Assembly: GCF_004087915.1 (NCBI RefSeq)
Contig: NZ_CP035108.1
Location: 496,001-560,000 of the forward strand
Reading direction: 5' to 3'
DNA from: Geovibrio thiophilus
Lineage (GTDB): Bacteria > Chrysiogenota > Deferribacteres > Deferribacterales > Geovibrionaceae
DNA length: 64,000 nt
The notes below the pieces were generated by a model. It ran no database searches. It was not told where the DNA came from and worked only from the letters and a program-made list of their open reading frames with translations. Shown here piece after piece: positions 12,397 to 17,224 of the stretch (within the stretch, counting starts at the first letter, position 1; each line of letters opens with the position of its first letter). Made by a program: the position numbers and the translations under genes.

Positions 12397-13158
12397 ATGT
12401 TAGAGGTTAGCTGTATGCCAGTGATAACTGAAACAATGATAGCAGCAGCGTATATACAAGGGAAGAAATTTTATAGTGGAGAGATATCAAGAAGTGAAGC
12501 CATTGATTATCTTATTGAAAATTATAAAATGAATCCAACTTCTGCAAGTCATTACATACAGGTGTTAGATTGTATGATGAAAGGAACTCGTTATTCGCGA
12601 AATATTAATAATTATTCGGCAAAATATTTCCTGAGAAAAATATTTGATGACTTTGGATATGAAGGGTTAAGTAAAGCGTTGAATGCCGTTAAAGCACATA
12701 TTGAATACTATGCTAAACTTCCAAAGGGTGGGAATTTGGTAGCACTGCAAAAAATACTTGATGACTTTTCAATGCTGAAAAACTCTATGAATCAAATTGA
12801 TATTCCAGAGGAAATACCTTTTGATGCTCCAATATATGAAGGTGCCAAAAAAACTATTACTGTTAACATTTATGAACGAGATCCTGCTGCAAGAGACAAA
12901 TGTCTTGATACAAAAGATTATAAGTGCTTGGTTTGCGATTTCGAGTTTTATACATTTTATGGAGAGCTCGGAAAACAGTTTATTCATGTGCACCATGTGA
13001 AACCTCTCAGTACTATAGGTCAAGACTACATTGTTGACCCTATCAGTGATTTAGTTCCTGTTTGTCCAAATTGCCATGCTATGCTGCATAAAAAGAAACC
13101 TGAGCCTTATTCAATAGAGGAGCTTAAAAAAATGATTTTATCTAAAAAATTGAGTTAG
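12397..13158 (+). CDS. HNH endonuclease, AT-rich and probably acquired
   Basis: The 253-residue protein ends in an HNH nuclease domain. Cys pairs CLVC and CPNC bracket the catalytic segment HVHHVKPLS, followed by DLVPVCPNCHAMLH, the classic histidine-asparagine-histidine metal finger used to nick or cut DNA. The N-terminal 110 residues are helical, of the type found in stand-alone HNH restriction-like proteins. The gene and the 205-base leader are much richer in A+T than neighbours and use codons such as ATA, TTA and AAT freely, a sign of horizontal transfer. TTAGCGG occurs on both sides (12188-12194 and 13154-13160). Start could also be ATG 12415. No methylase partner is adjacent. Confidence 0.82.
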   Translation: MLEVSCMPVITETMIAAAYIQGKKFYSGEISRSEAIDYLIENYKMNPTSASHYIQVLDCMMKGTRYSRNINNYSAKYFLRKIFDDFGYEGLSKALNAVKAHIEYYAKLPKGGNLVALQKILDDFSMLKNSMNQIDIPEEIPFDAPIYEGAKKTITVNIYERDPAARDKCLDTKDYKCLVCDFEFYTFYGELGKQFIHVHHVKPLSTIGQDYIVDPISDLVPVCPNCHAMLHKKKPEPYSIEELKKMILSKKLS

Positions 13159-15245: not shown

Positions 15246-15892
15246 TGATAAGCCTCACTCTGAAGGATGTTACAGCGATTGTAAGGCTCACTCCGCCGGA
15301 AGGCAGGTTCACCCTGCTTGACGCGCCCACCATAAAGAAAATAATCAGAACGCTTAAGGAAGTTTCCGAAAGCCCCGCAAAGGTTATACGCATTCAGGGA
15401 GGCTCCGGCTGTTTCGCTGTCGGTGCGGATCTCAAGACGATGTACGGCTATGACGGTTTTACCGCAAAGGGTTTTTCCATGCTTGGCAACTCTCTGTTTA
15501 ATCTCATGCGCACTATGCCGCAGGTGATAACAGGGGAGATCGACGGTTACTGCATGGGCGGCGGTATGGATTTTGCCGCCGCGTGCGATTTCCGGCTTGC
15601 AACGGCGGAAAGCGTGTTCGCCCACCCGGGAACCAAGCTCGGCATAATCACAGGCTTCGGCGGAACTCAGGCTATACCCAGAATCATGAAGCCCGCTGCC
15701 TCTGCGGAATTTTTCTGCACAGGGGAGATGTTCCGCTCTGAGGAGATGAAGCGCGGCGGCTTTCTCACAGAGATTTTCCCTTCAGCGGCGGATATGGATT
15801 CCTATGCCGCGCACCTGTGTGCTAAAATTGCCGCTAAGGACAGGGAGCTTCTCAGTCGCATGAAAAGAGGCTTGTTCCACAAGGGGTTATAA
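15245..15892 (+). CDS. Crotonase-fold protein lacking both hydratase glutamates
   Basis: The 215-residue protein has the crotonase core: oxyanion-hole segment FAVGADLK, glycine loop GYCMGGGMDFAAACD and motif HPGTKLGIITGFGGTQ. Where hydratases have Glu144 it has Asp (GGMDFA), and where they have Glu164 it has Gly (HPGTK). It should not be a normal enoyl-CoA hydratase. It may act as an isomerase, thioesterase or decarboxylase, or be a structural partner of the upstream paralogue. Start ATG 15245 is preferred (GAGGAGGAG just upstream); GTG 15242 is possible. It is shorter than usual (about 260), lacking part of the C-terminal helices. Confidence 0.78.
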   Translation: MISLTLKDVTAIVRLTPPEGRFTLLDAPTIKKIIRTLKEVSESPAKVIRIQGGSGCFAVGADLKTMYGYDGFTAKGFSMLGNSLFNLMRTMPQVITGEIDGYCMGGGMDFAAACDFRLATAESVFAHPGTKLGIITGFGGTQAIPRIMKPAASAEFFCTGEMFRSEEMKRGGFLTEIFPSAADMDSYAAHLCAKIAAKDRELLSRMKRGLFHKGL

Positions 15893-15929
15893 CTCTTATT
15901 ATTTTTTTGTCATGTTTTGTAAAATCTTC

Positions 15930-15956
15930 TTAAGTTTTTTCCGTTTTAGCCGATAA
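15930..15956 (+). promoter_or_regulatory. Sigma-28 (FliA)-type flagellar promoter
   Basis: TTAAGTTT at 15930-15937, 11 bases, then GCCGATAA at 15949-15956. The enterobacterial sigma-28 consensus is TAAAGTTT-N11-GCCGATAA, so 15 of 16 conserved bases match with exact spacing. Transcription should start near 15963 and run to the coiled-coil gene at 16103, leaving a leader of about 140 bases. A 53-codon frame at 15970-16131 in that leader is possible but unsupported. Confidence 0.8.
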
Positions 15957-16102
15957 GAAAGAAGCACGGATGCAATTATTTTACAGGGAAGTTGCCATAG
16001 AGGTGCGCCCGTGCGCAGAACCCCTTTCTTACCAGTGTTTTCAGGCTTTTCAGAAGGTTCCCGCACAGTTCCCAGCACCCCGGATTTTTCAGGGGGTCAG
16101 AT

Positions 16103-16477
16103 ATGAAAGTCGAACGCAGCAACGCAGTTGAACAGCAGGTGAGCCGCAATTCATCGGATGAGGTCGTTAAGTACAGCAACTCAGCCATAGCCGAAACCGT
16201 GAGCCGCATTGAGGATAAGCGCCTCATGCGCATAGCGGAGTATGATACTATAGAATATCACAAAGAGCTGAGAGTTAAGGACTTTAATAAGATGGAGAAG
16301 ACAAAGACTCTCCGTCTGGCGGAATACGGCGAAATAATGGAGGAGCGGGCTGAGGTCAAGCAGCTGCTCGTAAAGCTTGAGGAAAAGCAGGAACAGAGGC
16401 TCACGAAGGAATACCGTGATCAGCAGTATCTGACCGAACTTTTCATGAAGGGACTGCATTTTGACGCTCTGGTCTGA
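16103..16477 (+). CDS. Small coiled-coil protein under a sigma-28 promoter
   Basis: The 124-residue protein is highly charged and almost entirely helical, with heptad-like stretches (VKQLLVKLEEKQEQRLTKEY). It has no signal peptide, membrane segment or known domain. The RBS AGGGGG lies 8 bases before the ATG. The leader begins with an excellent sigma-28 promoter, which normally drives late flagellar and chemotaxis genes, so a role in flagellar assembly or motility is inferred from regulation only. It could be an export chaperone or a structural accessory. I do not recognise the family. Confidence 0.65.
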   Translation: MKVERSNAVEQQVSRNSSDEVVKYSNSAIAETVSRIEDKRLMRIAEYDTIEYHKELRVKDFNKMEKTKTLRLAEYGEIMEERAEVKQLLVKLEEKQEQRLTKEYRDQQYLTELFMKGLHFDALV

Positions 16478-16546
16478 AACCTTTTTCTTGCGGGGTTTGA
16501 AAAGGGCTGTTATAACTCCCTCTACTCATAAACAAAGGAAACTGAC

Positions 16547-17224
16547 ATGATAATACACGGCAGGAACACAGTTGCTGAAGCGCTTAAGCTCGGTCTTGTA
16601 AAAAACCTTTTTCTCCGCAAAGGCTCTACATTCAGGGAGAAGCCTGATGATCTTGAAGCGGCGGAGTTCGGCAGGAAGGAATTTGAGCATCGCTTCGGTG
16701 ACGAGGCGCAGGGCGTTGCGGCTGAGATCAATGATATAGAGCCCAAAGACTTCGTCCGCCACAGGAAGGAGATAGAGGGGAATGTCCTGATCCTTGACAG
16801 GATTCAGGATCCGCACAACTACGGAACCATAATCCGTGCGGCGAACTGTTTCGGCGTGAAGACAATTATCGTGGCGAGATACCATCAAGCGCCCATCACT
16901 GCCGCCGTCTGCAAGGCTTCAAGCGGGACGCTTTTTTACGCCGATGTTTACGAAACCACTAACATCAGCTCCGCTGCGGAGGATTTACAGAGAATGGGAT
17001 ATAAAATCTACGCCGCCGATATAGACAGCGAAACTGTACTGAAAGATGTGGAGTTCGCTGAGAAATCAGCAATTATTCTCGGCTCTGAGGGAAAAGGGAT
17101 ACGCCCGGGCGTGCTTGAAAAGGCGGATACCGCCTTCCGCATACCCATGAGCGGGGACATAGACTCTCTGAATGTTTCCCAGAGCGCGGCAGTTATACTC
17201 CACGCGCTGTACAGCTCAAAATAA
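16547..17224 (+). CDS. rlmB: SpoU-family 23S rRNA 2'-O-methyltransferase, RlmB-like
   Basis: This SPOUT (trefoil-knot) methyltransferase has 225 residues. Motif 1 is DPHNYGTIIRAANCFG, motif 2 is IILGSEGKGIRP and motif 3 is MSGDIDSLNVSQSAAVILH, all complete including the catalytic Arg and Asn. An N-terminal substrate-binding domain (IIHGRNTVAEAL) is typical of RlmB, which methylates G2251 of 23S rRNA, though tRNA-modifying relatives look alike. It ends exactly where the convergent minus-strand gene ends, with no spacer between stop codons. Confidence 0.9.
   Translation: MIIHGRNTVAEALKLGLVKNLFLRKGSTFREKPDDLEAAEFGRKEFEHRFGDEAQGVAAEINDIEPKDFVRHRKEIEGNVLILDRIQDPHNYGTIIRAANCFGVKTIIVARYHQAPITAAVCKASSGTLFYADVYETTNISSAAEDLQRMGYKIYAADIDSETVLKDVEFAEKSAIILGSEGKGIRPGVLEKADTAFRIPMSGDIDSLNVSQSAAVILHALYSSK

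Follow-up and report, generated by a model that had tools for sequence, protein, structure and literature searches.

A flagellin-type sigma-28 promoter and a putative CsrA-controlled leader precede a gene for a small helical protein in the Deferribacterales

The window analyzed here is a stretch of 64,000 nt, namely bases 496001-560000 of a single-contig 3.0-Mb Deferribacterales genome. It includes a gene for a charged protein of 124 amino acids (16103-16477, + strand), preceded by a promoter and a leader that, judging from sequence comparison with related genomes, are those of a lost flagellin. The reading that we regard as probable is that this is a late flagellar gene, transcribed by FliA (sigma-28) and controlled by CsrA and FliW, with a control region inherited from that flagellin.

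The promoter consists of a -35 element, TTAAGTTT (15930-15937, + strand), and a -10 element, GCCGATAA (15949-15956, + strand), separated by a spacer of 11 nt. In a motif scan of the window, TTAAGTTT-N11-GCCGATAA agrees with the sigma-28 consensus in 15 of 16 positions; i.e., the full site at 15930-15956, TTAAGTTTTTTCCGTTTTAGCCGATAA, has one mismatch relative to TAAAGTTT-N11-GCCGATAA. The initial annotation had called this a near-perfect sigma-28 promoter with exact spacing, and the description holds, the site being the only match in the window with up to three mismatches. A shuffled window contains 0.76 matches at this threshold, which corresponds, by arithmetic scaling from the 3-mismatch figure, to an expectation of about 0.002 with at most one mismatch. 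The whole genome contains two sites with at most one mismatch, the second at 1507774, and the spacer is also common to both. With three mismatches allowed, the genome-wide scan returns 71 matches, versus 66 for a reversed control; because the control is equally frequent, these matches are meaningless, and we rejected the loose scan as evidence for a regulon.

The promoter is kept upstream of the 124-residue gene in three genomes of the window genus, and promoter and leader together are found in 22 genomes, in all of which the -35 element (TAAAG or TTAAG, followed by T) begins exactly 21 nt before the CGA of the -10 element. FliA is encoded in the window genome, with a TIGR02479 match above cut-off (226 bits). 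Given the typical spacing of sigma-28 promoters, FliA would initiate transcription at approximately 15961-15964. The gene had been proposed to belong to the late flagellar or chemotaxis regulon. The first of these assignments is supported by a spacing that is fixed in 22 genomes from five families, by the many cases in which the promoter drives a flagellin, and by the presence of FliA; for chemotaxis we found nothing specific.

The second near-perfect site in the genome (1507774-1507800, + strand), which has the same spacer, lies about 190 nt upstream of a 224-residue ORF (MQSMTLSMTSTRFEATAYSS...) whose family we did not recognize; the sister genome G001 has retained both this promoter and a long, GGA-bearing leader. 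Three further sigma-28-like sites, each with two mismatches, are located at 750261 (- strand), 865016 (+ strand) and 2562909 (+ strand), 47-60 nt upstream of three ORFs. These ORFs are seemingly related, share a motif like DDFRWGxLV, and possibly form a paralogous late flagellar family.

Between the -10 element and the 124-residue gene lies a leader of 146 nt. This leader had been overlooked initially; the annotated promoter and gene stand, and a flagellin-type leader, two CsrA-type sites and a short GTG-started ORF must be added between them. The first CsrA-type site is GCACGGATGC (GCANGGANGC; 15964-15973, + strand) and the second is ACAGGGAAGT (ACANGGANGT; 15983-15992, + strand), which reads ACAGGGATGT in both sister species and is close to the CsrA SELEX consensus RUACARGGAUGU (PMC7652899). 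A Shine-Dalgarno sequence, AGAGGTG (15999-16005, + strand), follows, at the aligned position where other genera have the ribosome site of their flagellin. It belongs to an ORF of 31 residues, MRRTPFLPVFSGFSEGSRTVPSTPDFSGGQI (16011-16106, + strand), whose GTG is aligned with the codon that starts flagellin in those genera. The TGA of this leader ORF overlaps the ATG of the 124-residue ORF in the window species (ATGA). The leader ORF measures 31 residues in the window species, 24 in G001 and 10 in G002, with the first seven residues identical, and in the sister species it ends up to about 60 nt before the 124-residue start. Finally, a hairpin with an ACCCC/GGGGGT stem (16077-16097, + strand) covers the Shine-Dalgarno sequence of the 124-residue ORF; the letters of the stem are conserved in the three species, and its energy is not significantly better than that of shuffled sequences.

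A search with the leader DNA led to a second genus, in which the leader stands in front of a different ORF of 82 residues. With R1, a covariance model that we built on five sequences, every genome of the family (12 of 12) yielded one strong match, as did members of four further families in the order. Outside its five source sequences, 15 of 17 matches have E-values below 0.01 in the genome search, and the two weaker ones, in G031 and G019, are confirmed by the pattern of sites. In total, the promoter and about 60 nt of leader give one strong match in each of 22 genomes from five Deferribacterales families. A second model, built from all 22 sequences (R2), returns the same loci with E-values of 7e-15 to 3e-9, which are not independent because the model retrieves the sequences it was made from; it finds nothing convincing elsewhere.

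The pattern of sites is the same in all 22 leaders: GCANGGANGC begins 13-15 nt after the CGA (13 nt in 19 of them) and ACANGGANGT follows 19-23 nt later. Thus, each leader has two GGA sites in an (A/G)CANGGANG(U/C) context, within the range of 10-63 nt that a CsrA dimer can bridge (PMC7652899). The invariant letters of both sites are those of the CsrA consensus, and the variable ones are mainly at positions that CsrA leaves free. By chance, such a pair would be expected about 0.02 times per genome. We therefore consider it unlikely that the resemblance to CsrA sites is incidental, i.e., that the leader is a 5'-terminal element for RNA stability or initiation, or a DNA operator. The fixed distance between site 1 and the -10 element would be in keeping with an initially transcribed region or an operator as well, and the stems that could present the GGA motifs show no covariation; nevertheless, two copies of the CsrA consensus, 19-23 nt apart in every leader, together with similar sites in nearly all major flagellin leaders examined, some of them over the ribosome site, argue for CsrA as the ligand.

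The stems themselves have 3 bp and are paired in 92% of stem cells; as they are this short and lack covariation, the evidence supports a conserved sequence rather than a conserved structure. Because site 2 reads AAGT and not ATGT in the window species, its short stem contains a mismatch, and RNA folding favors a different, longer hairpin over the site stems, which is again not significantly better than shuffles. We accordingly discarded a stable structured RNA, the window leader folding no better than shuffled sequences. A known riboswitch or other RNA family was likewise rejected for lack of Rfam support: there is no match in the window at the gathering threshold, and none convincing at the locus at a relaxed threshold.

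The putative regulators are encoded in the window genome, where csrA adjoins fliW, close to flgL. FliW is found in 20 of the 22 leader-bearing genomes, the exceptions being G018 and the 73%-complete G031; finding it is not diagnostic by itself, however, since genomes without the leader carry FliW too. Upstream regions of the major flagellins of the relatives contain a GCANGGANG-type or ACANGGATG site in 26 of 27 readable cases, and ACANGGAGG is located at the ribosome site in 14 of the 27, which are not independent because many are orthologues.

Several further features of flagellar loci were noted. In the window genome, the flagellins at 2741078 and 2737775 (- strand) have a terminator-like hairpin followed by T residues between a sigma-28-like promoter and the start codon (e.g., CCGATGTCAGG...CCTGTCATCGGTCTTTTTTTT), which may represent a small RNA or an attenuator. 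At 2750016 (- strand), a small ORF (MAAVSVQKTKGENSQ...) directly follows a flagellin and has two ACATGGA(T/G)G leader sites, the second of them on the ribosome site. Elsewhere, a FliW match within an open frame of 2726 codons (G025:C1:2195000-2195344) and a FlgL-like match within a frame of 3226 codons (G018:C3:9253-9663) suggest giant or fused flagellar proteins.

What stands under the leader differs among lineages. In ten genomes (groups g2, g4, f3, f7 and f8) it runs straight into a divergent flagellin with both Flagellin_N and Flagellin_C domains, mostly of 650-680 residues, although that of G025 is shorter and that of G007 is divided between two frames. In the family f2, the ORF under the leader has 120-137 residues and resembles the last 90-100 residues of flagellin; i.e., it is a C-terminal stub. 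On either side of the locus, the genera g3 and g4 have the same genes, with the flagellin between them in g4 and the unrelated 82-residue ORF in g3. In the window genus, the flagellin start aligns with GTG 16011, the first codon of the short upstream ORF, and the 124-residue protein follows. The window genome encodes three major flagellins and FlgL, among which the divergent flagellin is not found, and no flagellin remnant is visible at the locus. Based on the aligned start, the missing divergent flagellin and the absence of a remnant, we conclude from these sequences that the control region was kept and its flagellin lost in the window genus. The flanks common to g3 and g4 were not found around the window locus, and because the neighborhood differs in this way, it is also possible that the cassette was relocated in the window genus and did not lose its flagellin in situ.

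If the flagellin is gone, promoter and leader might be mere relics, with the 124-residue gene read mainly from elsewhere. The absence of both the divergent flagellin from the genome and any remnant from the locus would fit this idea, which we nonetheless consider very improbable. From the -10 element to base 16013 the species are 91-94% identical, versus 69-78% for the gene, even though dS of the gene is above 1 or saturated between species. Moreover, the region 15800-16700 contains neither a sigma-70-like promoter nor a + strand terminator, and the 124-residue ORF lies at nearly the same distance from the leader in all three species.

In each of the three genomes of the genus, the 124-residue ORF is a genuine gene. 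Its product is 76% and 72% identical in the two other genomes, substitutions occur mainly at third codon positions, and the closest pair gives a dN/dS of 0.11. An AlphaFold2 model, based on the alignment of these three sequences, predicts a disordered N-terminus and a single long helix (residues 17-123, mean pLDDT 81), so that the initial description of a charged coiled-coil protein is borne out as to the ORF and is reasonable as to the fold. That annotation also did not recognize the protein, and neither do the databases: we obtained no significant sequence match in Pfam, NCBIfam or the PDB, no Foldseek match to the PDB with the model, and no relatives outside the genus among 60 genomes and the GTDB contig collection. 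Neither the protein nor the leader ORF has detectable similarity to flagellin. The 124-residue protein was specifically rejected as a flagellin, with no Pfam match over cut-off (Flagellin_N/Flagellin_C) and a score of -1.5 bits against a profile of the divergent flagellins; homology to the 82-residue protein of the sister genus was rejected as well, no similarity being found.

As a separate observation in the window, an ORF at 12397-13158 contains an HNH-endonuclease-like motif (VHHVKPLS...PVCPNCHAMLH) and lies apparently alone among unrelated genes.

Purifying selection on the 124-residue ORF also bears on whether the leader acts mainly in trans, i.e., as an abundant sigma-28 transcript that titrates CsrA in the manner of an mRNA-derived antagonist. 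The downstream ORFs would then be secondary and free to be replaced, which would explain why the leader was kept in three lineages while the coding sequence was replaced or cut down, and why it is better conserved than the gene. There is precedent in C. jejuni, where CsrA is titrated by the flaA leader, and the same paper names the Salmonella fimAICDHF leader as a further case (PMC4894983). We regard this as a minor possibility for the window locus. Two sites suffice for just one dimer; a separate small RNA is not evident, as no + strand terminator follows the leader; the ORF is under selection; and the leader is conserved together with its ribosome site and start codon. A CsrA-sequestering small RNA of the CsrB/RsmZ type was rejected for similar reasons, namely that the conserved sites number only two, that 15800-16700 lacks a + strand terminator, and that Rfam gives no match.

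Control of the gene in cis by CsrA and FliW, the reading we prefer, would operate as follows. The RNA initiated by FliA would carry two CsrA-type GGA sites within its first 30 nt, bridgeable by one CsrA dimer. As long as flagellin is held in the cell and occupies FliW, free CsrA would sit on the leader and keep the adjacent AGAGGTG closed. Because both sites are upstream of this ribosome site, repression would proceed by occluding or remodeling it. Once the hook is finished and flagellin is exported, FliW would remove CsrA, and translation would begin at GTG 16011. As the ribosome site of the 124-residue ORF lies within the hairpin, its translation would probably be coupled to that of the leader ORF. 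This coupling is plausible but weakly supported, because the energy of the ACCCC/GGGGG hairpin is not unusual, and it may not be general, because the leader ORFs are of unequal length (31, 24 and 10 residues). The 124-residue protein would thus be made during filament assembly, probably as part of the late flagellar program, and would most likely be a helical factor that assists a late flagellar step. Against this reading, the protein itself lacks flagellar homology.

Two known flagellin leaders resemble this arrangement. The C. jejuni flaA leader is sigma-28 driven and CsrA-repressed, with two GGA sites 21 nt apart (PMC4894983); the window locus likewise combines a sigma-28-type promoter, two CANGGANG-type GGA sites about 20 nt apart, and csrA and fliW in the genome. 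In contrast to flaA, which encodes a major flagellin, the window gene is not a flagellin gene, its sites are next to the 5' end and precede the ribosome site, and binding of CsrA to them is predicted from the motif. The B. subtilis hag leader has two CsrA sites, one overlapping the Shine-Dalgarno sequence, and FliW as antagonist (PMC7652899). The window leader shares with it two CsrA-type sites in a flagellar-type mRNA leader and the presence of FliW, but neither site covers a Shine-Dalgarno sequence, both being upstream of AGAGGTG, and the product is not flagellin. The divergent flagellins of other Deferribacterales have the same promoter, leader and start position; the window locus differs from them in that its 124-residue product and leader ORF show no detectable flagellin similarity. 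The leader may therefore work like a CsrA-controlled flagellin leader of the hag/flaA type, yet it is not one here, as no flagellin is downstream and no site lies on the Shine-Dalgarno sequence; we view it as a variant of that type. The sigma-28-dependent, UTR-derived small RNAs of E. coli, as outlined in PMC10578931, are a looser parallel: here, too, an untranslated part of a sigma-28 transcript may act by itself, but this leader looks more like an RNA that CsrA would bind than one that acts by base pairing, and it lacks its own terminator.

A control region is generally assumed to go with its gene, and here, across much of an order, a flagellin promoter with its double CsrA-type leader has been kept over a flagellin, a flagellin stub and unrelated small proteins. 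We tentatively suggest, as a possibility that we would not yet favor, that the sigma-28/CsrA control region of flagellin has become an independent regulatory cassette in the Deferribacterales, which persisted in three lineages beyond the full-length flagellin and precedes another small protein in each, serving either as an mRNA-derived sponge for CsrA or to subject a new component other than flagellin to the flagellin checkpoint. The results would extend the FliW-CsrA flagellin checkpoint to this phylum, for which our literature search found no such study. They also provide a natural test of whether a flagellin-type double CsrA leader acts in trans on CsrA, and nominate as candidate late flagellar proteins the 124-residue product of the window genus and the 82-residue product of its sister genus.
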